Virus record (IMG/VR): IMGVR_UViG_3300032288_002224
Location: 1-33,892 of that record
Reading direction: 5' to 3' (one strand)
DNA from: a virus
Length of the DNA: 33,892 nt
Of this stretch, positions 1,030 through 31,238 are shown one piece after another. Every line of letters starts with the position of its first letter. The stretch's first letter is position 1. The notes under the pieces were generated by a model that saw nothing but the letters and a program-made list of their open reading frames with translations, was not told the DNA's origin and did no database searches. The position numbers and the translations under genes were made by a program.

Positions 1030-1031
1030 CC

Positions 1032-2072: not shown

Positions 2073-2078
2073 TAGCCT

Positions 2079-4018: not shown

Positions 4019-4020
4019 CT

Positions 4021-4434: not shown

Positions 4435-4437
4435 TCC

Positions 4438-6431: not shown

Positions 6432-6448
6432 ATTAGAAGGATCGTTAT

Positions 6449-7378: not shown

Positions 7379-7380
7379 CC

Positions 7381-7521
7381 GCCCGCGAGGGCAAACCAAA
7401 ACCAACGCTATCGAGATGCCCCGTAGGGCGATAGGCGGCTCCCCGGCTTAAGGCCGGGGGCAACCCGCCGACGCGCGCCTGCGGACAACCAGATCGGAGC
7501 GTCTTTCCCAAACCGAAAGGT
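7381..7521 (+). promoter_or_regulatory. Highly structured leader before the major capsid gene
   Basis: The 151-bp gap between scaffold and capsid folds into successive hairpins. The first is GCCC-GCGA-GGGC (7381-7392, GNRA loop). In the second, an inner GCCC-CGTA-GGGC is closed by CTATC/GATAG with a 5-nt bulge (7408-7434). In the third, CCCCGGC-TTAAG-GCCGGGG (7441-7459) is closed by GCGG (7435-7438) and CCGC (7465-7468). A small ACC-GAAA-GGT loop at about 7512-7521 overlaps the likely Shine-Dalgarno (AAAGGTG). There is no T tract after the strong third stem. The layout suggests an RNA stability or translation-control element for the most abundant virion protein; this is inference from base pairing done by eye. 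Confidence 0.5.
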
Positions 7522-7529
7522 GCTTCAAA

Positions 7530-8372: not shown

Positions 8373-8378
8373 TCAATA

Positions 8379-8406
8379 GGCTTCGGCTAACGCCGGAGCC
8401 TTTTTT
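8379..8406 (+). terminator. Intrinsic terminator after the capsid gene
   Basis: Stem GGCTTCGGC / GCCGGAGCC (one G-U pair) with a TAAC loop, followed immediately by TTTTTT. It begins 7 bp after the capsid stop. It should end or attenuate transcripts carrying the capsid gene, giving capsid more mRNA than the genes behind it. Confidence 0.85.
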
Positions 8407-8433
8407 CTTCTCCGATCACGAAAGGAAAGCCAA

Positions 8434-8682
8434 ATGGCTTACGCTACGACTAACCCGCCCGTCCGCGTTACGGTCGGCGCTCTTGATGGCAATGCTCCTG
8501 CGGTGTGGGTTTATAAATCCGCCGATGCAGTCGCGACCGTTAAGGGCAGCAAGTATTTCTCCAACGGTTCGAGCCTCGGCATGATCGTTGGCGATTTCGT
8601 CCTTGTCTCTGACACGGCGACCCCGCTTGGCACGCTGACGGTTGTTTCGGCCGTCGCGTCTGACGGCGCGACCGTTGTGTAA
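8434..8682 (+). CDS. Small virion-module protein of unknown function
   Basis: 82 residues; ATG start with GAAAGGAAAG upstream. It is rich in Val, Ala, Thr and Ser with strand-like alternation (VRVTVGALDGN, MIVGDFVLVSDTATPLGTLTVVSAV). Similar small beta-rich proteins follow capsid genes in podoviruses and can be head decoration proteins, but no named family is recognised. It is unusually isolated, bracketed by two intrinsic terminators (8379-8406 and 8695-8724), which suggests its own expression level. Likely a structural or decoration protein (inference). Confidence 0.6.
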   Translation: MAYATTNPPVRVTVGALDGNAPAVWVYKSADAVATVKGSKYFSNGSSLGMIVGDFVLVSDTATPLGTLTVVSAVASDGATVV

Positions 8683-8694
8683 TTGAGCTTTGAT

Positions 8695-8724
8695 GGGGGG
8701 CCATAGTGGCCCCCTGTCTTTTTT
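8695..8724 (+). terminator. Strong intrinsic terminator
   Basis: Perfect 8-bp stem GGGGGCCA / TGGCCCCC with a TAG loop (8696-8714), extendable by one G-U pair, followed by TGTCTTTTTT. It lies 13 bp after the 82-residue gene and just before the Shine-Dalgarno of the next gene, so it separates the capsid pair from the tail genes. Confidence 0.88.
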
Positions 8725-8734
8725 GGAGTAGCAC

Positions 8735-9175
8735 ATGCAGGAAGCAGGCGTTCCGATGATCCGTGAATCGCGGATCAATTTCATTGAGTTTGCCCGTCAG
8801 ACACATCATGTCGTGCCTGAGGACGGGACGGCGTTTGAGGATGTCCTTAAGGACTCCTTCTGGTCGCTTGTCGGTTACAAGTTCAAACCCGGCGACATCG
8901 TAGAAGTTCATGCCGAAGACGGCAGCTATTTTGCTGAGCTTTATGTTCGCGCTGCCGGCCGGAATTGGGCGAAAGTCGCCCTCCTTCGCAAGATTGATCT
9001 TGAGCCTGTTGCGGTCGCTCTTGGTTCGCCTGAGTTTGAGGCGACGTGGAAAGGCCCGCACCGTAAATTCTCTGTCGTCCGTCTGGCTGACAACCAGATC
9101 ATCAAAGACGGCTATGAGACGCGCGAGCAGGCAATCGAATACATCAAATCTCACGTCAAAGCTCTGGCGGCCTAA
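8735..9175 (+). CDS. Conserved protein between capsid and tail tube genes
   Basis: 146 residues; ATG at 8735 has TTGGAG upstream (a second ATG at 8756 is possible). The middle contains a small barrel-like stretch, YKFKPGDIVEVHAEDGSYFAEL followed by AKVALLRKIDL, which looks like an SH3/OB-type beta fold. The C-terminal half has a KFSVVRLADNQIIKDGY strand-turn-strand and a helix (TREQAIEYIKSHVKAL) that resembles single-strand or protein-binding repeats of small size. No enzyme motif is visible. The position suggests head-tail joining or another virion-related role; family unknown. Confidence 0.6.
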   Translation: MQEAGVPMIRESRINFIEFARQTHHVVPEDGTAFEDVLKDSFWSLVGYKFKPGDIVEVHAEDGSYFAELYVRAAGRNWAKVALLRKIDLEPVAVALGSPEFEATWKGPHRKFSVVRLADNQIIKDGYETREQAIEYIKSHVKALAA

Positions 9176-9177
9176 TC

Positions 9178-9810
9178 ATGACAGCATCAACGACGCAACT
9201 ACAGCTTTACAATAAGGCTCTACGCCATCTTGGCGAGCGTAAGCTTGCGTCGTTGAGCGAAGCGCGCGAAAGCCGGCGTTATTTGGATGACGAATACGCC
9301 GACACGCTTCTCCTGTGCCTGCGCGCTGGCAATTGGAATTGGGCGACGCGCGTGACAGAGATCACGGCCGACGCATATGTCGTGCCGGCGTTCGGATATG
9401 AGGCGGCGTTTCCAAAGCCCGCCGACTGGATCAGGACGACGCTGATTTCCACGTCGGAAACGATGGACCCGCCGCTACGCAATTATCAGGATCAGGAAGG
9501 CTACTGGCTGGCAAACGCTGACACGCTCTATATCCGCTACGTCTCCAGCACGCTTGGCAATACGCTGGCAAGCTGGCCGGTGGATTACGCCGAATACGTC
9601 GGCGTTGCGCTGGCGCGGGCGATTGTCGCCAGAATTACGCAGAACGACGCGCTTTCTGACCGGATAGAAGCTCGCGAAAAGCTCTATTGGAAAAAGGCGC
9701 AGGCTAACGATGCGATGGATCAACCGCCGCAGCCGTGGCCGCTTGGCACATGGACGACCAGCCGCATCCGCCGTGGCAATATCGGCAATAATTCAATCAA
9801 GAATTGGTGA
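9178..9810 (+). CDS. Tail tubular protein A (adaptor, T7 gp11-like)
   Basis: 210 residues, near the T7 gp11 length (196). Typical features are TTQLQLYNKALRHLGERKLASLSEARESRRYLDDEYADTLLLCLRAGNWNWATR at the N-terminus (helical adaptor core) and AFPKPADWIRT, then a VDYAEYVGVALARAIVARITQN helix. The protein forms the dodecameric ring between portal and nozzle. ATG follows the previous stop by two bases. It is followed three bases later by the nozzle gene, the normal order. Confidence 0.9.
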   Translation: MTASTTQLQLYNKALRHLGERKLASLSEARESRRYLDDEYADTLLLCLRAGNWNWATRVTEITADAYVVPAFGYEAAFPKPADWIRTTLISTSETMDPPLRNYQDQEGYWLANADTLYIRYVSSTLGNTLASWPVDYAEYVGVALARAIVARITQNDALSDRIEAREKLYWKKAQANDAMDQPPQPWPLGTWTTSRIRRGNIGNNSIKNW

Positions 9811-9813
9811 TAG

Positions 9814-12621
9814 ATGCCTCGCTATAACGCGCCATTTTACAGCCTGAATAGAGGCGAGGTTTCACGCCTTGCTCTTATGCGCGTTGACCAAGAGCGGCTC
9901 GCTATGTCCGCTGACAAGATGGTCAACTGGCTTCCGTTGACGGCTGGCCCTATGACGCTGCGCCCCGGCACGGAATATCTTGGCTCCACCTACAGCGATA
10001 AGAAATGCCGTATCCTTGAGTTCGTTTATGCGACGGACGATGCGGCGCTTCTGGAGCTTACGGATCAAAACCTGCGCGTTTGGGTGGATGGCGAGCTTGT
10101 TGCCCGCGACACCGTAACCAGCACGCTTCAAGCATATTCAGCATGGACTAAAACGGCCTCTACTGGCGCTTCAATTACAGTAGACGGCTCCGGCAACCTG
10201 ATATTTAAGGATGTCAAGCAGGGCGGGCTTTCATACGCTTATGGCACATTAAGCTGCACCGGAAACCTGAATAAGTCTCACGGCCTGCGTTTCCCCGTTA
10301 CGCTTGGCGGCAACTTGTCTCTTAAGATCGGAACGACGCAGGGAGACGACGACGTTTTCCCTGAGACGATGCTTGAGACGGGGACGCACTCAATCAATTT
10401 TGCCCCAACGACAACGACCGTTTACGTCCAGCTAGAAAGCAAGGACGAGCGCTCGTATAAAATTGCTCCTATTACGGTTGAATCCGGCGGCGCTATGATT
10501 ATCCCGACGCCGTGGCTGGAAGCCGACCTGCCTTATGTTAGATACGACCAGTCGGCAGACGTGGTGTTTCTGGCCTGCGCTAATTATCAGCAATATATGA
10601 TCCAGCGCAGAGCTTTTAATTCATGGTCCGTCGTCAAGTATGAAGTCGCTGACGGGCCTTTCCCCGGCAAATCAGGCGATGATACATTCCGGTTCACGCC
10701 TAATGCCCTGCGTGGCGACGCGACGATTACGACGAATAAGCAGTTTTTTCAGGAGTCAATGGTCGGTGCGCTTCTTCGCCTGTATCATTTGCAGCAAGAT
10801 ACGACGGAAGACCTAAACGTAGCTGAGACGTCTACTGCGCCGATATTCGTAACCGGAACGGCCGAGACAACCTATTGGGATCCCAACGGAGGCACAGGAA
10901 CGCCGCCCCCCGGTTCGTTCACGACGATTTCTTCGACAGAGCGTCAATTTACAATTTCCATCACCGGAACGTGGTCAGGCACGATAGCGCTTCAAAGAAC
11001 GTTTGACCCGGAAGGCATATCCGATTGGGTTCAAATAGAGACTTACACGTCTAATCAGTCCAAGACGTATAACGACCATATGTCTAACGTGCAGGCGTAT
11101 TACCGCCTGTTCTTTAAGTCCTATACGTCGGGGACGGCGACCTGCAATCTCTCGATTTCAGGCGGCGGCGGCGCTGGCATCGCCCGCATTATTTCTGTCA
11201 GCACGGCGTCTGTGCCGCATACGGCTACAGTCCAAATCCTCAAGCCGTTTTACGGCTGCGTCACGTCAGGTGGCACAACGCGCGGCTCTGGCTCCACGAC
11301 GCAGTGGCGTTTGTCTCAGTGGGACAGTAATCAGGGCTGGCCTTCGTCTGTCACGATCCACGAAGGCCGCCTCTGGTGGGCCGGTGGCGCTCGCATCTGG
11401 GGTTCTGTGTCGGACAATTACTATTCGTTCGATCTGGATATGGAAGGTGAGGCTGCGCCGATAAACCGTTCTATCGGCAAGGGGCCAATCCAAAATACAA
11501 ACTTTATGATGTCATTAGGTCGCCTTGTCATTGGAACGGACGCTGGCATTATATCCGCTCGTTCAAGCTCATTTGATGAGCCTTTAACTCCGGCCAAGTT
11601 TAACCTGAAATATTCTAATACGCAGGGAACGGCTGATCTTCGTCCTCTAACGCTTGACCAGAAGGGCATATTTGTCCAGCGATCAGGTCGCCGCGTCTAC
11701 ATGATTGTCTTTACGACCCAATCGTTTGACTATCAGACGATTGATCTTACGCGCTTAAATCTTGACATCGGCATCCCCGGCTTCAATAGCCTCGGCATAC
11801 AGCGCCAGTTAGACACCCGCCTGTGGCTGATTAGGCAGGACGGGACCGCGGCGGTGTTCCTGTTTGACGAGCAGGACAAGGTAGAAGCGTGGTTCCGCGT
11901 TGAGGCGGCTGACAGCGGCTTTATTGAAAACGTAGCCGTTCTGCCGGGGACGCTGGAAGATCAGGTTTATGTGGTCGTCCGCCGCACCGTTAATGGCTCA
12001 ACGAAGCGTTATTTGGAGCGTTTCGCGCGCGTCGATCAGTGTCAGGGCATTTCCATCAACCGCCTACTTGACTGCCATGCGGTCTATGAAGGCACGGCCA
12101 CGACGACGCTGACAGGGCTGTCTTTCCTAGAAGGCAAGACGGTAAGCGTATGGGGCGCTACGGCGACGGACGTGTCCAACAGCACCGGCCGCGACCTTGG
12201 CACCTATACCGTCTCCAGCGGCTCAATCACCGTGTCAACGTCTGTCACGAAAGCCGTCGTCGGCCTGCCTTATACAGCGCAGTTTGTGTCGTCCAAGCTG
12301 GCCTATGCCGCCCGCGAAGGAACGCCAATCAACCAGATGAAGCGCGTCAATAAGATTGGCTTCGTCCTTGACCGCACCCACTATCAGGGCGTCCGCTACG
12401 GTCAGTATGACATGCAGACCAGCACCTATACGGCGGATGATCTGCCGTTGATAGAAGACGGCGCTGAAACGGCCGCCAACAAGATTTGGCAATACTACGA
12501 TCAGCAGCAGTTTGAGCTTAACGGCGCGTGGGATACCGACTCTCGCGTCTACGTCGAAGCCGCATCGCCGCGACCGGCGACCGTGTTGGGCTTCACGATT
12601 GAAATGGAAACCAGCGGTTAA
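9814..12621 (+). CDS. Tail tubular protein B (nozzle, T7 gp12-like)
   Basis: 935 residues, somewhat longer than T7 gp12 (794). The N-terminal part (NAPFYSLNRGEVSRLALMRVDQERLAMSADKMVNWLPLTAGPMTLRPGTEYLG) and the middle block around residues 525-620 (EGRLWWAGGARIWGSVSDNYYSFD, then NFMMSLGRLVIGTDAGI) are characteristic of podovirus nozzle proteins. The nozzle closes the tail tube and carries the fibres. A long insertion rich in Thr, Ser and Gly at about 330-460 (FTISITGTWSGTIALQR) has a fibronectin/Ig-like flavour and may explain the extra length. Late operon, directly after the adaptor. Confidence 0.9.
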   Translation: MPRYNAPFYSLNRGEVSRLALMRVDQERLAMSADKMVNWLPLTAGPMTLRPGTEYLGSTYSDKKCRILEFVYATDDAALLELTDQNLRVWVDGELVARDTVTSTLQAYSAWTKTASTGASITVDGSGNLIFKDVKQGGLSYAYGTLSCTGNLNKSHGLRFPVTLGGNLSLKIGTTQGDDDVFPETMLETGTHSINFAPTTTTVYVQLESKDERSYKIAPITVESGGAMIIPTPWLEADLPYVRYDQSADVVFLACANYQQYMIQRRAFNSWSVVKYEVADGPFPGKSGDDTFRFTPNALRGDATITTNKQFFQESMVGALLRLYHLQQDTTEDLNVAETSTAPIFVTGTAETTYWDPNGGTGTPPPGSFTTISSTERQFTISITGTWSGTIALQRTFDPEGISDWVQIETYTSNQSKTYNDHMSNVQAYYRLFFKSYTSGTATCNLSISGGGGAGIARIISVSTASVPHTATVQILKPFYGCVTSGGTTRGSGSTTQWRLSQWDSNQGWPSSVTIHEGRLWWAGGARIWGSVSDNYYSFDLDMEGEAAPINRSIGKGPIQNTNFMMSLGRLVIGTDAGIISARSSSFDEPLTPAKFNLKYSNTQGTADLRPLTLDQKGIFVQRSGRRVYMIVFTTQSFDYQTIDLTRLNLDIGIPGFNSLGIQRQLDTRLWLIRQDGTAAVFLFDEQDKVEAWFRVEAADSGFIENVAVLPGTLEDQVYVVVRRTVNGSTKRYLERFARVDQCQGISINRLLDCHAVYEGTATTTLTGLSFLEGKTVSVWGATATDVSNSTGRDLGTYTVSSGSITVSTSVTKAVVGLPYTAQFVSSKLAYAAREGTPINQMKRVNKIGFVLDRTHYQGVRYGQYDMQTSTYTADDLPLIEDGAETAANKIWQYYDQQQFELNGAWDTDSRVYVEAASPRPATVLGFTIEMETSG

Positions 12622-12642
12622 GCTGACCCGGAGAATACATAG

Positions 12643-13410
12643 ATGGCAATGGCGGCACCCGTCGCGGCTGGCGTATCCCTATTGGGCGCTGGCATCGGCG
12701 CTTATGGACAGATGCAAAGCGCATCATCGCAGGCGGCTGGCCTAGAAAACAATGCGGCAAACACTCTTGCCAGCATACCTCAGTCGATTATTGGACAGGC
12801 TAATGCTCGTCTGGCGGCGCAGGAAGCCGATTGGGCTATGGCCGACGCCAAGCGCGCGGCTGACTACAGCATCCAGATAGGCGAAAACGAATATCGTCGC
12901 TCTTTAACCGACGCGGACAATGCTAGAGCGTCTGGTCAGATCAAGGCATTTAATGCCGCCCGCGAAAAGAAACTTGCTTTATCCGCTATCCAAGCGCGTG
13001 GAGCGTCAGCCGGTGGTGGCGCAGCGTTAGACCTAGCCGGTCAAGTTGGCGCACAAGGCGAATTTAATAAGCTTTATTCTCTCTACGAAGCAGAGAATAC
13101 GGCGCGCTCAATATACGATCAAGGCGTAGCGGCTAAATGGAACGCCCAAAATCAAGCGTATCAGACCATGCTTAGTCGCCGTGCTATGGCGTCTCAAAAA
13201 GCTGGCTATGAAAATCAGGCGCTTTCTTACGGCAACGCGGCAACGTCCGCCATGCTGACTGCGCAAAACTATAGAAGCGCCGCGTCAAACATGCGCTCGC
13301 AAGCCCCATTAGCTGCGGCAGGAACCCTTCTTGGCGGCGTTGGTTCTGCAATCACGTCGTATCGTTATGCCGGCGGCGATCTAAGCAAGCCTCACTCAAT
13401 AATCGGATAG
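12643..13410 (+). CDS. Internal virion protein, T7 gp14-like
   Basis: 255 residues. It begins with a hydrophobic Gly/Ala segment (VAAGVSLLGAGIGAYGQ, residues 6-22), then long Ala/Gln-rich helices (residues 40-210), and a second Gly-rich hydrophobic stretch near 225-240 (LAAAGTLLGGVGSAI). This is the usual layout of gp14-type ejection proteins, which leave the capsid first and form a channel in the outer membrane. It has a GGAG Shine-Dalgarno about ten bases upstream of the ATG. It lies first in a block of three genes corresponding to T7 14-15-16. Confidence 0.8.
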   Translation: MAMAAPVAAGVSLLGAGIGAYGQMQSASSQAAGLENNAANTLASIPQSIIGQANARLAAQEADWAMADAKRAADYSIQIGENEYRRSLTDADNARASGQIKAFNAAREKKLALSAIQARGASAGGGAALDLAGQVGAQGEFNKLYSLYEAENTARSIYDQGVAAKWNAQNQAYQTMLSRRAMASQKAGYENQALSYGNAATSAMLTAQNYRSAASNMRSQAPLAAAGTLLGGVGSAITSYRYAGGDLSKPHSIIG

Positions 13411-13421
13411 CGGGAAACTAA

Positions 13422-15788
13422 ATGCCAACTTTGCCTGACGTTACCTCGCTTGGCCCATTGCAAAGCGGGCAGGGAAGCCGTGCCGGCGCTAATTACAATG
13501 CTCCTGCATATGCGCGCCCGATTGACCCTATTGAAGCGCCGCGTGGTGTAAAGGTAGATGCGCAGGTCGTTGACACTGGCGCTGGCGCTAAAGCTTTAAG
13601 TGCTGGCGTTGAGCGCGCCGCTATGGCAGGTGCGTATTATTTCGGTCATGAGGCGGCCATGCAGGCCCGCTTTAATGAGGCCAACTCTGACTATAAATAC
13701 CTAGTTGAAACATCAAAAGTTAAGCAAGCCATATCTACTGCAACGACCGTAGAAGAAGTTAATGCTCTTAAGGAACGGTTGGCGCAAATACCAGACGAGT
13801 CATCAGCAAATTTACCAGAAGGTCAGCGTGAATATTATAAGCTGAAAGCAGCCGGAAATATTGTCGGCATAGATGAATTTGCAAACAAGCATATCTACAA
13901 CATAAATAAAAACAATGAAATAGCAGCAGTCAATTCTAAGCTTGTCGAGCTTGCAGACGCATATCGGACCGGAGATAACCCTACGCGGGCATATGCGCAT
14001 GAGACAGCGGGTATGCTTTATGAGCAACTAGCTGCGGCTGGATACTACGATCAGGACACAATAAACAAACAGCGAAATGAGTGGACTGTAAATGCGGTCA
14101 AAGGGCAAAAAGAATTATTGCCGCCGCGTGAGCGCATCACCGCTCTAGGCGGTGTTTTGCCGGGGACCGTGCAGGCCGACGAGCTTCCTGTGTTTGCCAA
14201 AGCATTTCTTAACGGCGTTGCCGGCCCGGAAAGCGCTGGCAAATATAACGTCCGCTATACCGCTAAGGGCGGAGCGGAGTTTGGTGATTTATCCCATCAT
14301 CCGAATATTGCTGAGCCTATCGTCAATGGGCCAAACGCCGGAAAGACAAGCTCTGCGGCGGGTCGCTATCAGTTTGTAAATGATACATGGCAGCGCGCAG
14401 CCAGCGCCGTTGGGGCTACGGACTTTGGCGCGGCAAATCAAGACCGCGCCGCTTGGTGGCTGGCGCAGAACGATTACAAGTCCAAAACAGGACGCGACCT
14501 TGCTGCCGACCTTCAATCCGAAGGGCTTTCCAAGCGCATCATGTCTTCCCTTGGCGGAACGTGGGAGGCGTGGCAGTCTGACGCCGGACAGCGCAAAAGC
14601 ATTGCCGCCTTTAACGCAACTATGTCTGGGTCGCCTGATGTCAGCATTGCGATGGACGCTGGCGATCCAGACGCAAAACTGCTTCCTGTCGATGTTCGCT
14701 TGCAAATGCTCCAAAAGGCGATTGCCGACGATTCCCGCGTTACGTCTGCGGAGCGGGCGCAGATCACGGAATTAAAGCAAGACCTGAAAATAGACCTTGA
14801 TATGGTCGCCAACACCGGCGTCCCGCTTGATGGCTTCCGCGAGCGCTTTCAAGCCGTCTATGGGCCGCAAGCTGTTACAGAATTGGACAAGCAGCGCGAA
14901 GCCGCCGCTACCCTATTCACCGTCACGTCTAATATGAAGGACGCGCCGACGGGCCAGTTGGACATGCTGGCCGAGCAGATCAAGCCGACGCCTGATCTTA
15001 TTGGAACGCCGCTCTATGCGCAGCTAGACGCCAACTATAACGCCGCCGTCAAGAAAGCCGTTGAGATTAAGAAGGCGCGGTCAGAGGATATGTCGGCTTA
15101 TGCTGACACGCTTATTGACACCAACCTTCGTCAGCAAGCGGCGTCAGGCGATATTGAGGCCAAGAAAAATCTTGCGACCGCACGGCTAAGGACATTTGAA
15201 AGATTAGGCATTCCGCCGGAAGCGCAGATGCCGGCGACTAAAGCGGAAGCGAAGGAGCTTATGGCTCCGGTCACGATGGCGCTTCCCGGTCAGGAAAAGA
15301 AGGCGCTACAGGAAGTCGTGCCGAAGATTGCGGCCATCTACGGCGACGATCTGGCTGAGCGCGTTATCGGCTTTGCGCTCAATACGGCTCGCGCCGACCA
15401 GCAGACGCAAGAGCAGGCCGCACGCATATTTAAGAAGTTAGGCATGGGCCAGCCGGTCAGCGACACGGAAGTCGCGACGCTGGACGTGACTAAAACAAAT
15501 GACGCGATGGCTGCTGCCGCCGGCGTTCCTGCCGCCCCGGCTCCGACGCCGCGTGACGCTTTCCCTGACTACGGCGCAAGCACGACGCCGGAAGGCGAGG
15601 CGGTCGCGGCGGAAATCCAAAAGCAAAACCAGCCGCAATTCCCGATGCCGAATGATGACGCCATCCGCGATATTATCGCTCAGCCGACTCCCGGTCGCGT
15701 CAAGGCGTTTAATCGCACATTTGGCCCCGGCGCTGCCGAGCGCGTTCTCGGCGCTTCCAAAGAAATCACACCCGGACGGCTCCCGTAA
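13422..15788 (+). CDS. Internal virion (ejection) protein with lambda-R-like muramidase domain
   Basis: 788 residues, in the T7 gp15 position. Residues about 262-402 resemble lambda R/GH104 lytic transglycosylases. GPESAGKYNV (Glu270) matches the catalytic SEGTD region of lambda R, DLSHHPN matches its DYSDHP element, SAAGRYQFVNDTW (Gly314 region) matches STGAGRYQ, and FGAANQDRAAWWLAQ matches the SPKSQDAVAL helix. The domain would cleave peptidoglycan glycan strands during DNA entry. Flanking regions are Ala-rich helices (1-230 and 410-788), typical of ejection proteins. Its stop abuts the ATG of the giant gene. In T7 the murein-cleaving domain is in gp16 and is SLT-type, so both location and fold type differ here. 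Confidence 0.82.
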   Translation: MPTLPDVTSLGPLQSGQGSRAGANYNAPAYARPIDPIEAPRGVKVDAQVVDTGAGAKALSAGVERAAMAGAYYFGHEAAMQARFNEANSDYKYLVETSKVKQAISTATTVEEVNALKERLAQIPDESSANLPEGQREYYKLKAAGNIVGIDEFANKHIYNINKNNEIAAVNSKLVELADAYRTGDNPTRAYAHETAGMLYEQLAAAGYYDQDTINKQRNEWTVNAVKGQKELLPPRERITALGGVLPGTVQADELPVFAKAFLNGVAGPESAGKYNVRYTAKGGAEFGDLSHHPNIAEPIVNGPNAGKTSSAAGRYQFVNDTWQRAASAVGATDFGAANQDRAAWWLAQNDYKSKTGRDLAADLQSEGLSKRIMSSLGGTWEAWQSDAGQRKSIAAFNATMSGSPDVSIAMDAGDPDAKLLPVDVRLQMLQKAIADDSRVTSAERAQITELKQDLKIDLDMVANTGVPLDGFRERFQAVYGPQAVTELDKQREAAATLFTVTSNMKDAPTGQLDMLAEQIKPTPDLIGTPLYAQLDANYNAAVKKAVEIKKARSEDMSAYADTLIDTNLRQQAASGDIEAKKNLATARLRTFERLGIPPEAQMPATKAEAKELMAPVTMALPGQEKKALQEVVPKIAAIYGDDLAERVIGFALNTARADQQTQEQAARIFKKLGMGQPVSDTEVATLDVTKTNDAMAAAAGVPAAPAPTPRDAFPDYGASTTPEGEAVAAEIQKQNQPQFPMPNDDAIRDIIAQPTPGRVKAFNRTFGPGAAERVLGASKEITPGRLP

Positions 15789-18700
15789 ATGACAGAACAG
15801 CTTCCCCCCATCGACATCGGTTCGCCTGTCAGCGCCAACGCGCCGGCGACGGAAGACGAGTCGTATTTTGACAAATACGTCGATGACAAGAGCAAGAAGC
15901 CGCCGTCATTTATTGACCGTGCATACGACACGGCGCGGGCGTCTTATTACAAGGACACGATCTTTGGCATAGGCGAGGCGAAAGAGCAGTCTAACTTCTC
16001 AACCCTTTACCCGGAACAATACCCGGATCGCTTTGGCTACGACCTTAAGCTTATTGAAGCGGCCAAAGATTCGACCGCCGCCAATGCGCCCATGACGCAG
16101 GCGCAGCTTGCCGAGATCAAGAACAAGTCCTACCCGGAGGCGCAGACTGCCGGCGAGAAGACGGCGGATATTTTGGGCGGCCTTGTCGGCGGCTCCGCCT
16201 CGCCGGAGACGTTTGCCCTGCCGGCCGTCAAAGGTCTGACTGCCCTTAAAGCAACATCCGCCCTTGGCTCCAGCGTCGCGTTTGCTGAAAAATATCTTCC
16301 CGGCATGGCCTACCGTGCCGTTGATACCGGCTTGGGGCAGGCCGCCCTCATGGCGACGGTCAACCCCGTCATCCAGAATGGACGCATATCCGCTGGCCTA
16401 CAGCGCGAGTTTGATCCGTGGGAAATGACGCTGGCTCCGCTGGAGGGTTTTGTCGTTGGCGCGGGCCTGCACGTTGGCTTTGAGGTTGCCGGCAAGGCGG
16501 CTGGCAAGGCGGCGCAGGCGTTTGCTGACAGCCCGACCGGCAAATCCATGATGGAGGGCTTTGAGCGCCGTATTGCCGAAAAGGCGATGACGCGCATCAA
16601 GGAAGCTGACGCCGGCTTCCGCGCTCCTACGGACATTATAGAGACGCCGCGCGAAATGGGCGCGAACCTGTTTGACGCGCGCACGGAGGCCGGACAGCCG
16701 GCGACTGATGTAGTCGGAACGGTAGAGGCTATTCCCACACAGGCATCGCTTCCCGCTACGGTTGATAGCGCTGCAAAACCAAACCGGCTCAATGCGGCAG
16801 ATATGTTATCTGACACGCAAGGCGCGCTCAACGGCGGCTCAATAGATGCGATGCGCTTTGCGTCAGCGCCTAGAACAGAAGACATCGACGCTTTAATCGA
16901 GGTCGGTCAGAAGCGCGAAGACGCGGAGATTGACAGAATTTTTGGCGAGGACGCGGAGAAGGTAAAGGGCTTAATCCGCCGAGGACGCATAGATCAAGTC
17001 GATGATATTATTTACGATAAGTTTGGCTCTTATGACACGCCGGAAGCCAAGGAAGTAAATGGTATTATTTATGGGATGGACGGCTATTCCATCGTAAACA
17101 CGGAAAGCCTTAAGTCTCTCCGCGACCGCTTATCAAATCTGGAGTTTGCGGTTCAGGATGCGGCAAACGGCGATACCGGCCAGCTTTCTAAGGAATTGGC
17201 TTGGGTTGCTCCTGAGCTTCCTGACATATCCGCGCCGGAATCAAGCCACACGGAAACGCAGCGCATCGCCCTTCTCTCTCTGGCTAGAGCCATTGAGGAC
17301 ATGAATGCGCTCAACATAGACCCGCTGCCTATTCTCAGGGAGACGGTCAATTACACCGGCCTTAGAGTTGGTGGGGACGTAAGTGACGCGGGTGTGTTGT
17401 TAGACAGGCTCGCGCAATACGCAAATGAATTTCTTGTAAAGGCCGAGACTGAGCGTCGTCCTAAAGCGGCGATGTCTGCTGCGAAAGCAATAGATAGCAT
17501 TCCCGTTGGCGACCGCAGCGCTAAGATACCTGCGCTGACGCCTGAAACGAACGCTATGACAGCGCCGGCTACAGAAGGCGGGCCGGCTGGCATATTCATG
17601 CTTGATCCAACCGAAATGAAGGTTGACGCCAAGCGCTTCCAATTCAAAGAGGGCGGCGACGAGCAGGGTGTTACAAGCCGTCTTAAGTCGGTCACGAAAT
17701 GGGATCAGGCCAAGGGCAATCAAGTTATCGCTTGGCAGGGCTTAAACGGCGAGCTTTACGTCGTTGACGGCCACCAGCGCACCGGCCTTGCCAAGCGCCT
17801 TATTGAGCAGGGCAACGAAACCGACATCAAGCTTCCCGGCCTGCTGTATCGCGAGGCTGACGGCATATCGGCGGAAGACGTTCGCGCGATTGCCGCTGTC
17901 AAGAATATAGCCGAAGGCTCCGGCTCAGCGCTGGACGGCGCAAAGGTTCTGCGCTCGCGGCCTGATCTGATGGATGGTTCGCTGCCGCTGTCAGAAGGAA
18001 AGTCCCGTCAGGCGTATGCTCTATCCCGCTTGTCCGACGAACCTTTCCGTATGGTCGTCAACGACGTTGTGCCGGAGAACTACGGCGCAATCGTAGGCGA
18101 GCGTATCCCGAACGATCCGGCCCGACAGGAAGCCGCAATCAAAGCGCTGGCCCGCTTTGAACCGCGCAATGAGACAGAGGCGTCTGTCCTCGTCCAGCGC
18201 GTAGCGCAGGCTGAGCTTGAGAAAGCGCAGGAGGGTGCGCAGGGGTCTATGTTCGCTGACCTTGAGACGGCTGACAGCACGGCCGGCGAGGAAATGCGGA
18301 TTGTCAGCAAGGCAATTCAAGAGCTTAAGAAGGACAAAACCCTCTTTCAGCGCGTGGTTGCCAACGTCGAGCGTATTGAGCAGACTGGCTCAAGCATTGA
18401 GCGGGAAGCGGCCAAAGAGGTCACGAACGAGGCCGAGCTATTTGCTAAGCGCCTTGCCTCTGACGCCTATTCCGCCGGCCCGCTGCGTGATGAATTAAAG
18501 GCCGCCGCCAAGGATTTTAAAAATGGAAAAATCTCGCTCAACGACGCTACAGCCAGAATACGTTCTGCCCTCCGGGGAGCGGCTGAAACAGATGGCGGCG
18601 CAGGGATTGGCAATCGCGCAGGTGACGCGCAAGAGCTTGGAAGCCAGCGATCAGACGCCGGAGCGCAAGGAGCCAAAAGCGCCGCCGCGCCGGAAGCCGA

Positions 18701-21700
18701 AGTAAGCAATCAAAGCTTCGCCCGCCGAGGGGATGACAATAACGTCTATCTTGGAAATCTGCGTCTCCAGTTTCGCGACGATCATGTTTTCTTTATCGTC
18801 AAGGACGGCCCGGATTTAAGCATATACAAGGACGGTGGATTTAAGCCCAATCGGTCGAATGAAATTTACGCCAAGGAAGCTATTGAAAAAGGCGTTCCGG
18901 CGGACATTGCGGCAAAGATCAAAGATTACCTTGAAGCGCCAAAGTTAGAGAAAGAGCCTGCTATAGAGCGGACGGTGCAGGCTCTTGATGACATGGCGCA
19001 CAAGTTCTTTGCTACAGAGCGCACCGCAGCCGGCGACCAAACCCTCGTTCCCGGCGTCAGGCCGGTCACGGAAGCGGACAAAATAGCCCTTGAGGCAGGT
19101 CGTCCGCTGTCCGGCGGCAATGAGCCTGCCGGCGGCATGTTTGATGAGGCCAACACAAACCAGACGGATATGTTTGGTGCGCCGAAGCTGGCCGGCGAAG
19201 ATACCCCTGACTTACAATTCCGCACGCGCGGCCCAAGCTATCCGCCGGAGGAAGCGAGTCGTATCGCGGAAGCGCGTAACGGCGAAGTCCTGTCCTTGCA
19301 GCAACAGTCGCTTGATCTGGCTGATATGCTTGGCATCCCTGTCCGCGAAGGTCGCGTCCAAGGCGGCCGGTATGTGCAGGGCCAATATGAGCGCAAATTC
19401 GGCGTCGGCCGCGTCAGGCAGATAGGCGATTTCTACACGGTAGCCCATGAAGCCGGCCACGCGATTGAGCAGCGCATCGGCGGCGACCTGCAAACCCTGA
19501 TGAATAATCACGCCGCCGAGCTTGCAAAGCTTGATCCTAGCGGCAACGGAAGTGTGTCAGAAGGCTTCGCCGAATGGATGGTGAAGTTTATCCTGAATCC
19601 GGCTTCCGCGATGAAGGACGCTCCAAACTTCACGCCTGTCTTTACTGACTTCTTAGGCCAGCGCGATCCGTCGATAATGAATGCTCTGGCGCAGGCGTCG
19701 AATAATTACGCCGCGTTTATCTCCGCGCCCACGCCGGTTCAATTAGGTGCAAGCATTACAGGCGTTGAACCGCAGGGCTGGTTTAGAGGGCTTGTCCGCT
19801 CCTATAAGGAAAATGGCCTGACCGCGACGATTGGGCGCGTTCTTGCTGACGCTTATACGTCCGTCCTTGACGCCTATGACCCGCTGACCCGTGCGACCCG
19901 CGACCTGACGCGGATGGTCTATCAGGCCAACGACAAGCAAGTCGTAGACATGAGCGCGGCCGAGCGTCCTGACATCCTTATGCGGATGTGGTTCGCCCGT
20001 TCGGCGCAGGGTGCGGCTTACCAGTTGCGTTACGGCGTCGTGCCTAACCGCAGCACCGTCCCGACCGGCCCGTCCCTGCATGACGCCATTGCCGTGGCGG
20101 TTGGCGAGCCGGGATTGCTTGGCCGATGGGATAACGTCAAGGTCGATGAGTTTGGCTTGTTCCTTGCGATCAAGCGTGCCGAGGTATTGATTGAGCGCTA
20201 TAACGCCGGCGACTTTGGCGAGCGCTATCCTCTGCCTGACAACTGGACAAAAGCGAACGTCGAAAGCGCCAAGGCGGCTATGCTGGCTGAAAATCAGCAA
20301 TATGAGCAAGCCGCTCAGATGGTTCATGACTATACGCAGCAGCTTCTCAAAAAGCAGTTTGACGGCGGAATCATTGACAAGGAGCTTTACGATAAGCTTT
20401 CCGAAACGCCGTTCTACGTCCCGATGTTTCGTGACGTTTCTGACAAGCCCCTGTCAGGCGTCCGTCCCGGCGCGTCCCCTGACAGCCCCGGCCTGACGGA
20501 TACGATAAAGACACTGCGCGGTTCGTCCCGCGATATTATCAATCCGCTGCAAGGCATTATGCAGCAGACGTTCCTTATTGAGCGGACTCTGCGCCACAAC
20601 GACGTTATCCGCGCCTTCGTTGATCTTGCCGCCCGCGCTGGTGCGCCGTCTGGCTATATGGTCGAGCCTGTGCCGGCCAGCGAGGTCAGAGCGCTTACCT
20701 TTGATGTTCGCTCTAGCATTGAAAAGCTGGCGAAAGACAACGGCATTCCTGAATACGACGCTGAGCTTTTGATGTCGTCGATCAATAACGTGTTTGGAGA
20801 AGACCCGCTTCTCGGCACGATGTTCAAGAAAATGCCGACCGAAAAGCGCGGCGAGCCGATTGTCTTCTACAAAGAAGCCGGCGAAATGAAAGCCGTTCGC
20901 CTTATGGCCGGCAAGGAAGGCATGGCGATCTATGAGGCCATGATGACCCTGCCGACGGCTGGCAAGGACGTGGCTGCGCAGGTCATGCAGGCGGCTGGCA
21001 ACATACAGCGCGCCGGTATCGTTTTTGAGCCGACGTTTATGATCTCCAACCTTGTCCGCGATCAGATGGCGGTCGGCATCCTGCGCCCTGATTATATCCC
21101 GTTTTGGGATGGTGCGCGGGGCGTCTGGTCGGAAATTACACAGGACGAGGCAGCGCAACTTTACGGGTATTTTGGCGGTCAGTCCGCCGGCGGCGCTGTC
21201 AACGAATCCGTTGGCATGGCGGTTGGCGCTGGCATAGACGATCTGGGCCGCAAGAACTGGCTACAGCAGAGAACGAAGAACCCGCTGGCGTTTATTGAAG
21301 GAACGCAAATCTCGGAAGCGGGAACGCGCAATTCGATCTTCGCTAAAGCTTACGAGCAGAAACTTTCTGCCGGCATGTCGCCTTATGAAGCGGCCATGGA
21401 AGCCGCATGGGCTGGAACGGACATCCTTGATTTCAGCCGGCACGGATCGAAGACGTTCATCATCCGCCAGCTTACGCCTTTCTGGAACGCCAATATTCAG
21501 GCGCTTGATAAGGCTCGCCGGACAATGCTTGAGCCGCTTGCCCGCGCCGCTAAAGGCGACGTGCTGACTGTGCAGGACAAGCTTGATGTCGCAAATGCTT
21601 ATATGGCGATGTTCAAGTTTGCCGCTGTTGGATCGGCGCTAGGAGCGATTTGGGCGGCAGTGAATAATGAGGATGAGGTCTACCGCGACGCCGACCCGAA

Positions 21701-22994
21701 GCGCAAAGGAACGCATTTCGTGTTCTCGGCCGGCGGCAAGGAATACGATATTCCAAAGCCGTTTGAATTGAGCCTTGGCTTTACACTTGGCGAGCAGGCT
21801 TTTGCAGCGCTTTACAATAAAGACCCACGCGCTGCCTCCAACTTTATAACGGCTGCGTGGGAGACGCTTATTCCGCCCATGCCAATCGTAGAGAACCCGC
21901 TTATCAAAGCGTCTTATGAAGGCGCGACCGGCGTTGACACTTATACCGGCCGGGACATCGTGCCGGAGAATATGCAGAAGTTTAACGAGACGCCGCATCT
22001 GCAATACAACGAGCGCACCGCGCCGTTGGCTGTAGGAATTGGGCAGACTTCTAAAATCATTGCCGACTATCTTAATCAGGCGACTGGCGAGGCGTTCGGT
22101 AAAGCCAAACCGTTCTCCCCGATTAAGGTTGAGCATATGTTTGGCACGGCCTTCGGCACGACCGGACGCGACATGATGGCGGCGTCCCACTGGTTCACGC
22201 CGTCTGACACATCAGCGCCGGCGCAGTTTGAAGATACCGTATTTCTACGCAGGTATATCAAAGACCCGACAAGAACCAGCGACACGATCACAAAATACTA
22301 TCAGCACGTTGCGCAGAAGACGGGCGATTACGTCAGCGCCGTTGCCGCATTTGATGAGCTTATCAAGAAGCGCCGGCCGACTGACGCGAAGGAGCTATAC
22401 AACGGTCTTAAGGCAGACCAGAAGGCGTATGTGCTTCTTGCCTCCGCTGGCACGGATGACGGCAAGTCAGCCTTTGATGCAGGCCAGCGCCGCATCCATC
22501 CCATGACAAGGGCGCAGAACGCTCTAGCGCAGCTTGGCGAGGTAGCCCGCCAGATTGGTTCTAATATCCTGTCTGACAGCGAAACCGGACAGACGATCCA
22601 GTTAAGCCGGCCTATGCGTAAAGCGGCTATTGAGGCCATTCATCAGCTAGGCGCGCAGGAAATGCGCAACGCGCTCGTTATGACGAATGAGCCGGGGTAT
22701 GAAGGCAGAAATATACTTGACGTAAACAAACAATATGCTGTCATTAAAGCAATATCGCCTTCCTTGGCCGATGAGGTCGCCCGCCGATATGCGATGGCCG
22801 GCGTCTATAAGACAGGCCTTGTGGCTAAGAACTGGCCGGCGGCTAGGAAAGAACTGATCCGCAACGGTTCTGAGGCTGACATTTCTGACATTAGCGGCGG
22901 CATTGCAGACGAAGGCTTCGAGTTTGGCGCTGACAAGATTAAGCGTCCACGGAAGCTCCGTCTGCCAATGGAAGGACAGCCGGCCTTTCAGTAA
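15789..22994 (+). CDS. Giant polyvalent ejection protein (ParB-like + zincin + LPD38-like)
   Basis: 2401 residues in the T7 gp16 position, nearly twice the size of gp16. Visible parts in order: Gly/Ala-rich hydrophobic stretches at about 125-260; a ParB/DdrB-like segment at about 590-800 with VVDGHQRTGLAKRL (Asp660, His662, Arg664); a charged linker at about 900-980; a small domain near 985-1050; a zincin motif HEAGH (1220-1224) with SEGFAEW (Glu1258/Glu1262) as likely third ligand; and a long C-terminal half (about 1300-2200) with FEPTFMISNLVRD (near 1748) and RQLTPFWNANIQALDKARR (near 1885), the look of large polyvalent protein domain 38. Such proteins travel into the cell with the DNA and act against host functions (known for the class). 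Substrates here are unknown. Confidence 0.85.
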   Translation: MTEQLPPIDIGSPVSANAPATEDESYFDKYVDDKSKKPPSFIDRAYDTARASYYKDTIFGIGEAKEQSNFSTLYPEQYPDRFGYDLKLIEAAKDSTAANAPMTQAQLAEIKNKSYPEAQTAGEKTADILGGLVGGSASPETFALPAVKGLTALKATSALGSSVAFAEKYLPGMAYRAVDTGLGQAALMATVNPVIQNGRISAGLQREFDPWEMTLAPLEGFVVGAGLHVGFEVAGKAAGKAAQAFADSPTGKSMMEGFERRIAEKAMTRIKEADAGFRAPTDIIETPREMGANLFDARTEAGQPATDVVGTVEAIPTQASLPATVDSAAKPNRLNAADMLSDTQGALNGGSIDAMRFASAPRTEDIDALIEVGQKREDAEIDRIFGEDAEKVKGLIRRGRIDQVDDIIYDKFGSYDTPEAKEVNGIIYGMDGYSIVNTESLKSLRDRLSNLEFAVQDAANGDTGQLSKELAWVAPELPDISAPESSHTETQRIALLSLARAIEDMNALNIDPLPILRETVNYTGLRVGGDVSDAGVLLDRLAQYANEFLVKAETERRPKAAMSAAKAIDSIPVGDRSAKIPALTPETNAMTAPATEGGPAGIFMLDPTEMKVDAKRFQFKEGGDEQGVTSRLKSVTKWDQAKGNQVIAWQGLNGELYVVDGHQRTGLAKRLIEQGNETDIKLPGLLYREADGISAEDVRAIAAVKNIAEGSGSALDGAKVLRSRPDLMDGSLPLSEGKSRQAYALSRLSDEPFRMVVNDVVPENYGAIVGERIPNDPARQEAAIKALARFEPRNETEASVLVQRVAQAELEKAQEGAQGSMFADLETADSTAGEEMRIVSKAIQELKKDKTLFQRVVANVERIEQTGSSIEREAAKEVTNEAELFAKRLASDAYSAGPLRDELKAAAKDFKNGKISLNDATARIRSALRGAAETDGGAGIGNRAGDAQELGSQRSDAGAQGAKSAAAPEAEVSNQSFARRGDDNNVYLGNLRLQFRDDHVFFIVKDGPDLSIYKDGGFKPNRSNEIYAKEAIEKGVPADIAAKIKDYLEAPKLEKEPAIERTVQALDDMAHKFFATERTAAGDQTLVPGVRPVTEADKIALEAGRPLSGGNEPAGGMFDEANTNQTDMFGAPKLAGEDTPDLQFRTRGPSYPPEEASRIAEARNGEVLSLQQQSLDLADMLGIPVREGRVQGGRYVQGQYERKFGVGRVRQIGDFYTVAHEAGHAIEQRIGGDLQTLMNNHAAELAKLDPSGNGSVSEGFAEWMVKFILNPASAMKDAPNFTPVFTDFLGQRDPSIMNALAQASNNYAAFISAPTPVQLGASITGVEPQGWFRGLVRSYKENGLTATIGRVLADAYTSVLDAYDPLTRATRDLTRMVYQANDKQVVDMSAAERPDILMRMWFARSAQGAAYQLRYGVVPNRSTVPTGPSLHDAIAVAVGEPGLLGRWDNVKVDEFGLFLAIKRAEVLIERYNAGDFGERYPLPDNWTKANVESAKAAMLAENQQYEQAAQMVHDYTQQLLKKQFDGGIIDKELYDKLSETPFYVPMFRDVSDKPLSGVRPGASPDSPGLTDTIKTLRGSSRDIINPLQGIMQQTFLIERTLRHNDVIRAFVDLAARAGAPSGYMVEPVPASEVRALTFDVRSSIEKLAKDNGIPEYDAELLMSSINNVFGEDPLLGTMFKKMPTEKRGEPIVFYKEAGEMKAVRLMAGKEGMAIYEAMMTLPTAGKDVAAQVMQAAGNIQRAGIVFEPTFMISNLVRDQMAVGILRPDYIPFWDGARGVWSEITQDEAAQLYGYFGGQSAGGAVNESVGMAVGAGIDDLGRKNWLQQRTKNPLAFIEGTQISEAGTRNSIFAKAYEQKLSAGMSPYEAAMEAAWAGTDILDFSRHGSKTFIIRQLTPFWNANIQALDKARRTMLEPLARAAKGDVLTVQDKLDVANAYMAMFKFAAVGSALGAIWAAVNNEDEVYRDADPKRKGTHFVFSAGGKEYDIPKPFELSLGFTLGEQAFAALYNKDPRAASNFITAAWETLIPPMPIVENPLIKASYEGATGVDTYTGRDIVPENMQKFNETPHLQYNERTAPLAVGIGQTSKIIADYLNQATGEAFGKAKPFSPIKVEHMFGTAFGTTGRDMMAASHWFTPSDTSAPAQFEDTVFLRRYIKDPTRTSDTITKYYQHVAQKTGDYVSAVAAFDELIKKRRPTDAKELYNGLKADQKAYVLLASAGTDDGKSAFDAGQRRIHPMTRAQNALAQLGEVARQIGSNILSDSETGQTIQLSRPMRKAAIEAIHQLGAQEMRNALVMTNEPGYEGRNILDVNKQYAVIKAISPSLADEVARRYAMAGVYKTGLVAKNWPAARKELIRNGSEADISDISGGIADEGFEFGADKIKRPRKLRLPMEGQPAFQ

Positions 22995-28990: not shown

Positions 28991-29204
28991 AATCACGCTC
29001 CAGAAATTTCAGGCGCGGCAGGCTCAACGGCATAAGCCGGCGGCCTGTGTATGCTTCGTCGCCATGCGGCTTCTCGCCGGTAGCCGCCACAACCATGCGC
29101 GTGACGGCTTCGACTTCTCCGATGACTTCGTAAGCAGGCTTGTCAGCAGCGGCCCGACGTATGGCCGCCTGACGGCGGGCGACGGCCTTCGCGCTAATAG
29201 TCAT
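28977..29204 (-). CDS. Small unknown early protein
   Basis: 75 residues from ATG 29204, chosen because it makes an ATGA overlap with the dCTP deaminase-like gene; a TTG three codons upstream is an alternative. The N-terminus is a basic helix (SAKAVARRQAAIRRAAAD), the rest is mixed (YEVIGEVEAVTRMVVAATGE, RLMPLSLPRLKFLERDYD). Not recognised; nucleic-acid contact by the basic helix is only a possibility. Confidence 0.5.
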   Translation of the reverse strand: MTISAKAVARRQAAIRRAAADKPAYEVIGEVEAVTRMVVAATGEKPHGDEAYTGRRLMPLSLPRLKFLERDYDAD

Positions 29205-29692
29205 CCGGCCCAACTCCCGTCGTCGTGTTCGTGACGAGGGCCGTGTGCGGCTTTTGTCTGCGCCTGATACTTGCCGGCGTAAGCGCGCTCCGTAGGCTCA
29301 TCGAGCCAGTGAAACGCGATCTGACAGATTGGATCGCCAGCAGCGATCTCAACCGGCGTCACGCCTAGATTAACAAGCTCCAGCGTCAGGTTGCCGTGCC
29401 AGCCGGGGTCGAGCAGCGTATTGAACGCCGTGACGTGCCGACGCGCCCAAGTGGACTTGTCGATGACGTAGCCCACGACATCATCGGGTAGGTGAAAATC
29501 CTCAACCGTGTGGGCGAGCGCCGACTGGCCGGACAGAAGGCAGAGCTTGTGAGCGATTCGCACGTCATAGGAGCAAGCGCTTAAGCCATAGCTTTTGCCG
29601 TTCACGACCGTCTTCTCCCCGACGAACGGGGTGATGAGCGGCGGGTCAGCCTGACAGAGCCGGCGGATGGATTGGGCGGATAGCTGGCTCAT
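29201..29692 (-). CDS. dcd: dCTP deaminase/dUTPase-family enzyme
   Basis: 163 residues from ATG 29692, which has GGGGGGCGG upstream; a TTG at 29710 is in frame but less likely. Family motifs: CSYDVRIA (40-47), KSTWARRHV (79-87, the SS-A-R region), DPGWHGNLTLELVN (95-108) with Glu105 as the likely catalytic acid of deaminase members, and YQ.Q near the end (142-145). It converts dCTP to dUTP or removes dUTP, keeping uracil out of phage DNA and feeding dTMP synthesis. The C-terminus is His/Asp-rich. The trimeric dUTPase/deaminase families share these motifs; deaminase is favoured from SYD and the DPGW..LTLE pattern. Confidence 0.82.
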   Translation of the reverse strand: MSQLSAQSIRRLCQADPPLITPFVGEKTVVNGKSYGLSACSYDVRIAHKLCLLSGQSALAHTVEDFHLPDDVVGYVIDKSTWARRHVTAFNTLLDPGWHGNLTLELVNLGVTPVEIAAGDPICQIAFHWLDEPTERAYAGKYQAQTKAAHGPRHEHDDGSWAG

Positions 29693-29732
29693 GCCGCCCC
29701 CCGTGAACAAACGAGGAATCGGCGGCCGGAGC

Positions 29733-29754
29733 TGTATATAAAATTGTATATACT
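29733..29754. repeat. Inverted repeat A flanking attP (8-6-8)
   Basis: TGTATATA, a 6-nt spacer (AAATTG), and TATATACT: 7 of 8 positions pair. A further half-like TGTATAC follows at 29755-29760. The element is closely similar to the site at 29999-30020 (18 of 22 bases over CTGTATAT...ATATAC). It lies 103 bp from the tRNA-derived core, upstream of the dCTP deaminase-like gene. Possible arm-type binding site for integrase or excisionase, or an operator in the deaminase promoter. Confidence 0.5.
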
Positions 29755-29769
29755 GTATACGCGCAGGGA

Positions 29770-29828
29770 CGCTTTTTGTTCGCTTTTTGCGTCGGACGCA
29801 AAGCGTTTTGTTCCGGTTTTACCGGAAC
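29770..29828. repeat. Cluster of short repeats on the left arm of attP
   Basis: CGCTTTTTG is repeated directly at 29770-29778 (with preceding A) and 29781-29789, 11 bp apart, about one helical turn. A palindrome TTTGCGTC-G-GACGCAAA lies at 29786-29802, and a perfect 8-bp inverted repeat GTTCCGGT-TTT-ACCGGAAC at 29810-29828. None has a T tract that would make it a terminator. Such clusters next to att cores usually bind integrase, Xis or host bending proteins; that role is inference. Confidence 0.4.
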
Positions 29829-29856
29829 CAAAATGCCTGATATTTCCGTTGGTTAG

Positions 29857-29916
29857 TGGCGGAAGGGGAGAGATTCGAACTCTCGGTGGAGTTGCCCCCA
29901 CGGCGGTTTTCAAGAC
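29857..29916 (-). other. attP core: 3' part of tRNA-Ser(UGA)
   Basis: Read on the minus strand, this 60-bp piece is the 3' half of a class II tRNA: anticodon loop CTTGAAA (anticodon TGA), 3' anticodon stem ACCGC, variable arm GTGGGG-GCAA-CTCCAC, T arm GAGAG-TTCGAAT-CTCTC, acceptor CCCTTCC, discriminator G and CCA. The 5' half (acceptor, D arm, 5' anticodon stem beyond GT) is absent; homology ends at the anticodon loop. A phage that carries the 3' end of a tRNA next to its integrase restores the host gene on integration. The piece is therefore the likely attP identity block rather than a working tRNA. Confidence 0.85.
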
Positions 29917-29988
29917 ATTCGGTGAGTTTAGCTGCATACTTTCTAACCTCATGTTTTGCTTGCCAGATTTTATCTACAGATTGCCGGT

Positions 29989-31068
29989 TTAAGCGCGCTG
30001 TATATGATTTTGCATATACATGTCGGACACGCCTCTGATCGCTCTTGCCGCTTCGTCTGGCGTCAGATGCTCAAGGTAATCCTCCGTGACCTTCACGGAT
30101 GAGTGGCCCATGTGCTTTTGCAGGTCATAAATATTCATGCCTCCCTTGAGCGCTTCGACGGCAAACAGGTGGCGCAGGTCATGGAAGCGGAAGCGGTCAA
30201 ACCGGCGGCCTTCCTTTTCGGCTTTCGTCATCACTGTGCGGCGCAGGTGCGTGAAGTCGGACGCTGCTTGCGCGAAAATAAAGCCGTTGTCCTTGGGGAA
30301 TATCAGGTCAGTGCCACGCTTCCTCGGCAGAGCCTCAAAGAAGGCCGTGGAGTCCTTTTCTGGCGTCGGGCGCAAGGATATGACCCGCATCTTGTTTCGC
30401 TTGCCTATGACCCGCAGCGTCTTCCTCACGGCGTCATAATCACGCCAGCGGACGGTGACGATTTCGTTCTGACGGCACCCGGTCAGCCACGCCGCCCGAA
30501 TCAGTGCGCCAAACTCCGGCGTCGCGGCGGCAATAATGGCTTCAATGTCCTCCGACAAAGGGAGCGTGATCGGATCGCGCCGCTCCTTGATAAGCCGCCG
30601 GCGGCTGAGCGTGGGATTATCCTCGCGCCAGTTTTCCGTAATGGCGTAGTCAAGCACCCGCGATATAGCCGTCAGGTCACGCCGGATCGTCGCCGGTGAA
30701 ACGCCTTGCTTCCTGCGCACTTTGGCGTAATCGCCAACAATCTTGCCGTTGATCGCGGCAATATTCAGTTTGTCAAAGAACGGCTCCACTTGTTTCAGCG
30801 AAACAAGGTAGCGCTTGGCGGTGTTCGCCGGCAGATGCTTTCCTTCGTGGTCGATCCACTCGGCTACCGCGTCGAGCCATGTAACAACACGATCTCCGCG
30901 ATAGGCCCAATCGGCTGCTTCTTTGAGCATTTTGTCGCGCTCACTTCGCGCAACTTTGACATCGCTTGTTCGTAGCGACTTCTGGATGAGCTTTCCTTTG
31001 ACGTAGGCTCGAATCCAATATGTCTCTCCGCGACGAACGAGATTTCTGTCAGGGTTTTCTGCTGACAT
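29989..31068 (-). CDS. int: Tyrosine recombinase (phage integrase)
   Basis: 359 residues. N-terminal arm-binding strand region (RNLVRRGETYWIRAYVKGKLIQKSLRTSD, 8-36), then a SAM-like core-binding domain (about 62-150) and the catalytic domain. Active-site residues are visible: Arg199 (TGCRQNEI), Lys in the beta-hairpin near 223-226, His296-x-x-Arg299 (HDLRH), His322 (GHSS) and Tyr331 (EDYLEH). It integrates phage DNA at the tRNA-Ser site 73 bp beyond its stop. The ATG has GAGGAAAGG upstream, lying inside the overlapping HTH gene. The last codons contain inverted repeat B. Confidence 0.95.
   Translation of the reverse strand: MSAENPDRNLVRRGETYWIRAYVKGKLIQKSLRTSDVKVARSERDKMLKEAADWAYRGDRVVTWLDAVAEWIDHEGKHLPANTAKRYLVSLKQVEPFFDKLNIAAINGKIVGDYAKVRRKQGVSPATIRRDLTAISRVLDYAITENWREDNPTLSRRRLIKERRDPITLPLSEDIEAIIAAATPEFGALIRAAWLTGCRQNEIVTVRWRDYDAVRKTLRVIGKRNKMRVISLRPTPEKDSTAFFEALPRKRGTDLIFPKDNGFIFAQAASDFTHLRRTVMTKAEKEGRRFDRFRFHDLRHLFAVEALKGGMNIYDLQKHMGHSSVKVTEDYLEHLTPDEAARAIRGVSDMYMQNHIQRA
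29999..30020. repeat. Inverted repeat B flanking attP (8-6-8)
   Basis: A perfect TGTATATG / CATATACA inverted repeat with a 6-nt spacer (ATTTTG), inside the last codons of the integrase gene. It lies 83 bp from the tRNA-derived core, on the opposite side from the similar site at 29733-29754. The near-symmetry around the core fits arm-type sites of a tyrosine recombinase. Confidence 0.5.
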
Positions 31069-31238
31069 GACTGTTCCCTTTCCTCAATCCACTTCTCTAG
31101 TTTTTCTGGATTGAACGTCCACACACTCGCAATTTTAGCGGCACCGGGCAATTCGCCCCTTGCCGCCATAAGCTGAATCTGGCGCGTAGAAATACCTAGC
31201 ATCTTAGCGGCGGCAGAACTTTGAATCCGGTCAGCCAT
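30864..31238 (-). CDS. Excisionase-like HTH protein
   Basis: 124 residues. Residues 5-52 form a MerR/HTH_17-type winged helix typical of excisionases: SSAAAKMLGISTRQIQLMAARGELPGAAKI, then VWTFNPEKLEKWIEER. It has GAGG eight bases before the ATG. The protein continues 70 more residues in a frame that overlaps the first 205 bp of the integrase gene. That tail (EQSCQQKTLTEISFVAERHIG ...) is polar with Ser/Lys and no clear domain. An Xis directing integrase toward excision is the best reading; a transcription regulator is the alternative. The HTH is well supported, the long tail less so. Confidence 0.75.
   Translation of the reverse strand: MADRIQSSAAAKMLGISTRQIQLMAARGELPGAAKIASVWTFNPEKLEKWIEEREQSCQQKTLTEISFVAERHIGFEPTSKESSSRSRYEQAMSKLREVSATKCSKKQPIGPIAEIVLLHGSTR

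Follow-up and report, generated by a model that had tools for sequence, protein, structure and literature searches.

We analysed a 33.9-kb virus record (hereafter the window) whose head, connector and tail genes are podovirus-like. A tyrosine integrase of 359 amino acids is encoded on its minus strand at 29989..31068 (Pfam PF00589, 4.5e-19; PHROG integrase). The start of this gene is overlapped by that of a small excisionase-like HTH_17 protein (30864..31238, minus; PF12728; phrog_66 excisionase, 5.9e-07), a layout also present at the related locus L041 and in phage D3. Directly 3' of the integrase gene lies a 60-bp segment of tRNA-Ser(UGA) that runs from the anticodon loop to CCA (29857..29916, minus), and just past it is a co-directional dCTP deaminase gene (29201..29692, minus; PF22769, 1.2e-19). 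Two AT-rich 22-mers lie 102 and 82 bp away from the tRNA segment (put initially at about 103 and 83 bp): one at 29733-29754, upstream of the deaminase ATG at 29692, and one at 29999-30020, within the last integrase codons. Elsewhere in the window, positions 15789-22994 (plus) hold a single 2401-aa ORF that matches very long profiles of PHROG families whose function is unknown; it possibly codes for an ejected virion protein.

Read on the minus strand, the tRNA segment runs GTCTTGAAAACC...CTTCCGCCA, its start also being given as GTCTTGAAAACCGCC. No complete tRNA was found in the 33.9-kb window. Compared with the complete tRNA-Ser(UGA) of locus L011, the segment has 5 differences in 60 positions; L011, together with L009, is carried on contig G003 (IMGVR_UViG_3300035629_000014), where the integrase is 58% identical to that of the window. 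The G003 element is flanked by a complete tRNA-Ser(UGA) (427-516) and by a partial second copy past its integrase gene. Its attL and attR share 61 bp (456-516 and 16704-16764), starting in the anticodon stem. Identity of the core to a bacterial attachment site is thereby seen, via attL and attR, in the 58% relative, and it concerns the att site of that relative rather than that of the window phage itself. The whole G003 element (456-16764) is 16.3 kb long, short for a typical tailed phage, and may be a satellite or a prophage in decay. Among 385 genomes of the class searched for hosts, the exact core had no match with one mismatch allowed, and a degenerate core had none in 115 genomes of the class. 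Prophages carrying the window's integrase were likewise sought in the 385 genomes, which yielded only relatives of 31-32% identity; a scan of genome contigs for the same protein gave only relatives of 25-30%. From the core and the integrated relative, we conclude that the locus is a temperate-phage attachment site for insertion into a bacterial serine-tRNA gene.

The catalytic residues R199, K226, H296, R299, H322 and Y331 (RKHRHY) of the integrase are invariant in an 11-sequence alignment. A structure model made from 11 sequences (mean pLDDT 78.5; whole-protein pTM 0.52) has three strands followed by a helix (beta-beta-beta-alpha) at residues 10-58, with the core-binding and catalytic domains after them, and its top fold matches are full-length lambda Int (best PDB 1z1b). 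Pfam matches to an N-terminal arm-binding domain were sub-threshold only (DUF6538; Arm-DNA-bind_2 in a relative). On the strength of the model, the integrase is predicted to have an N-terminal arm-binding domain. Its small HTH neighbor is probably the excisionase, to judge from its profile match.

What do the two 22-mers represent? The initial annotation had described them as a pair of similar inverted repeats and had proposed an unusual attP with palindromic arms. Both repeats, and the 60-bp core between them, are indeed at the positions given there. The repeat at 29999-30020 is a perfect 8-6-8 inverted repeat (8/8 pairs), and that at 29733-29754 pairs at 7/8; a direct count of their likeness gives 17/22 rather than the reported 18/22. 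When the local 500 bp were shuffled 1000 times with dinucleotide content preserved, 8-6-8 repeats pairing at 7/8 or better occurred on average 0.19 times and perfect ones 0.005 times, and a look-alike pair of 22-mers, with the threshold set at 18/22, was found in 0 of 1000. The window as a whole holds 29 such 8-6-8 repeats. Since the AT-rich inverted blocks are rarer in local shuffles than observed, they exceed chance and are not noise. Within the window, the pair on the integrase side reaches 8/8 when scored as a palindrome and only 6/8 as a direct repeat, so the palindromic view was reasonable from the window alone.

The same blocks can also be read as direct repeats. On the integrase strand, the block on the side of the integrase reads TATATGCAAAATCATATACA and the distal one CGTATACAGTATATACAATTTTATATACA, and hexamers of the form TAYVCA lie at -102, -90, +155, +164 and +176 from the core start, all in direct orientation. 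Two candidate arm sites 12 bp apart are on the integrase side: TATGCA at 30011..30016 and TATACA at 29999..30004, both within the 29999-30020 repeat. The three beyond the core are all TATACA, at 29754..29759, 29745..29750 and 29733..29738, separated by 9 and then 12 bp, and the second and third belong to the 29733-29754 repeat (all five minus strand). Pairs of TAYVCA at a 12-bp lag occur in the whole 33.9-kb window only at the two reported repeat sites, and none of 20000 shuffles of the distal arm of the window produced the 9+12 triplet; TAYVCA is a short hexamer, with a consensus derived from the very relatives that are compared below. A further TATGCA, at 29933-29938 (-24 from the core), recurs at the same -24 position in both L004 and L005; it may mark an additional protein site, or simply the start region of an open frame that spans the attP.

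We compared the arms with those of loci whose integrases are 78% (L004 and L005), 72% (L040) and 66% (L041) identical to that of the window. Homologues of the first integrase-side site were found at -103 to -106 in all four. L004 and L005 have TACCCA at -103 and -91; beyond the core, their sites at +155/+164/+176 read TATACA/TATACA/TACCCA in L004 and TATACA/TACCCA/TATACA in L005, which has an extra related CACCCA at +143. L040 and L041 carry TATGCA at +131/+140/+152 and a TATGCA-led integrase-side pair at -104/-106, of which the second site is degenerate in L040. Each locus has a single 9+12 triplet, in every case past the core, at +155 in the window, L004 and L005 and at +131 in L040 and L041. 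Individual sites swap among TATACA, TACCCA and TATGCA, while the 12 and 9+12 spacings stay constant and palindromy is lost. As direct repeats at a 12-bp lag, the blocks of the four loci score 7-8/8, or 4/8 where TATACA and TACCCA have been switched, with positions kept; as inverted repeats, they reach only 4-5/8 in the best register. The proposal of unusual palindromic arms had made conservation of the pair in relatives sharing this integrase its own test, and it fails there. L005 alone also has an inverted pair, GTACCCAA...TTGGGTAC, from about 103 bp past the core end, that overlaps arm sites.

More distant relatives (53-58% identity) bear another hexamer, GGCACA, which stands twice on the side of the integrase and two or three times past the core. 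It is found at -70, -57, +122, +142 and +154 in L007 and L016, at -105 and -93 in L043, at -104 and -92 in L009, and at +131 and +143 in L011 on the same contig as L009. Gaps are mostly 12-13 bp, with one of 20 in L007 and L016. No reversed GGCACA was seen near the core in these relatives; orientation is uniform and the same as that of the hexamer in the window. In an Azospirillum plasmid integrase (L034, 38% identity), two GGCACA copies separated by 12 bp lie near the 3' end. Together, these loci chart cleanly how arm sites evolve in a poorly known clade of tRNA-Ser integrases, with spacing fixed and the hexamer drifting; the attP sites of L004 and L005 each carry two versions of the hexamer together.

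Why, then, do the window repeats look palindromic? The motif TATATACA holds the self-complementary TATATA, so that two copies in direct orientation at a 12-bp spacing can pair as 8-6-8 as well, and the palindromes are a by-product. Judged across these loci, the palindromic look comes from the TATA-rich version of the motif in the window phage. Hence, of the initial reading, the attP with its tRNA-Ser core stands, borne out by the 58% relative integrated at a complete tRNA-Ser(UGA) between 61-bp attL/attR repeats, and the claim of an unusual palindromic-arm attP is withdrawn. We consider it very likely that this is a lambda-type attP with five direct-repeat arm sites of one hexamer for the integrase N-terminal domain, the palindromes being incidental. 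The core, the direct-repeat geometry with its conservation, and the insertion of the relative at tRNA-Ser(UGA) are features of the sequences themselves; that the flanking repeats are integrase arm sites is very probable, and we infer that the integrase N-terminal domain would bind the hexamers.

Could the 22-mers instead be palindromic operators for a regulator that acts as a dimer, either the HTH protein or a repressor, and ties the integration state to integrase and deaminase expression? Their perfect or near-perfect inverted symmetry, rare in shuffles, would suit such a role, as would the place of one repeat just upstream of the deaminase gene. However, the relatives keep the direct spacing and not the palindromy, the 22-mer pair occurs nowhere else in the window, and no sigma-70-like promoter was found around 29733-29754. 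The initial annotation was right to put the other repeat inside the last codons of the integrase, but of a repeat in the deaminase promoter only the upstream position holds. Binding at the repeats may, as the initial annotation suggested, link gene expression to the integration state; palindromic operators as such we regard as quite improbable. We give equally little credence to the idea that the repeats on both arms bind the excisionase, with the integrase arm sites elsewhere. Lambda excisionase does also bind arm sites (PMC4880445), and an excisionase-like HTH gene is present; but the 2+3 layout on the two arms resembles published integrase arm sites, and no further repeat of conserved spacing was seen on either side of the core.

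Under the favored reading of five direct arm sites, the catalytic and core-binding domains of the integrase would work on the tRNA-Ser(UGA) core at its anticodon-loop end (the exact crossover position is one that we infer). Its N-terminal domain would bind the five direct TAYVCA sites, two in the last integrase codons and three about 155-180 bp past the core start, before the deaminase gene, and the small HTH protein would serve as excisionase. Integration would swap the 3' end of the host tRNA for the phage copy and would separate the integrase gene from that of the deaminase.

An open frame of doubtful function (29689..29952, minus) passes through the core and the distal arm, and its TGA overlaps the deaminase ATG (ATGA). 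Comparable frames begin 23-30 bp before the core and end on the ATGA of the next gene in the window, L004, L005, L007 and L016, that is, in two clades, and L007 and L016 use another reading frame through the tRNA core. Such an arrangement might place the attP inside a translated frame that couples the integrase to the next early genes, so that integration cuts an early operon and silences its distal half. There is precedent for an attP within a gene in the mycobacteriophage BPs repressor, whose product is altered by integration (PMC4557955). The frame has no PHROG match, its pN/pS of about 0.65 to 1.0 in three pairs gives no clear sign of protein constraint, and L040 and L041 have no co-directional next gene at its end. 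An open stretch past the core has a chance of about 7%, and its staying open in L004 and L005 is unsurprising (0.26 and 0.44). We think coupling through the frame unlikely and treat the frame itself as a weak lead; with or without it, integration would break the leftward gene series apart between integrase and deaminase. Between the core and the distal arm sites, away from the integrase gene, positions 29786-29828 hold two perfect inverted repeats with 8-bp arms, TTTGCGTCGGACGCAAA and GTTCCGGTTTTACCGGAAC. They form no T-run terminator for the integrase direction, and their position may recall lambda sib. A search of the minus strand between the integrase and deaminase genes found no intrinsic terminator.

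How does this site compare with known systems? With lambda it shares the heterobivalent tyrosine integrase fold and separate core and arm sites (PMC4880445), whereas it differs in its tRNA target and in its arm sequence. As to IHF-like sites, isolated one-mismatch sites and one exact site in L007 were found, none conserved or consistent across loci. Within the phage collection, the closest relatives with annotation are D3-like phages (27% identity). In D3, too, the excisionase gene overlaps the integrase start and the annotated attP is just 3' of the integrase gene, but the core sequence differs and the gene that follows lies on the other strand. Cluster J mycobacteriophages have direct 10-bp pairs and a tRNA-Leu core, with the left end of attB in the anticodon loop (PMC3706429). 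They resemble the window in that attB end, in a core just 3' of the integrase gene and in imperfect direct-repeat pairs as arm sites; they differ in the tRNA, in having four core-flanking sites and in an inverted arm-like pair at the integrase start. The transitional state proposed for Adephagia (PMC3203893) resembles the attP sites of L004 and L005 with their two versions of the hexamer. In mycobacteriophage Pixie, a tRNA core lies between two direct arm sites and three more (PMC3203893), and the window likewise has a 2+3 set in direct orientation; Pixie differs in having tRNA-Lys as its core, a sixth site that is inverted, unrelated hosts and another arm sequence. By its layout, the window attP belongs to a known, lambda-type kind and is close to that of Pixie.
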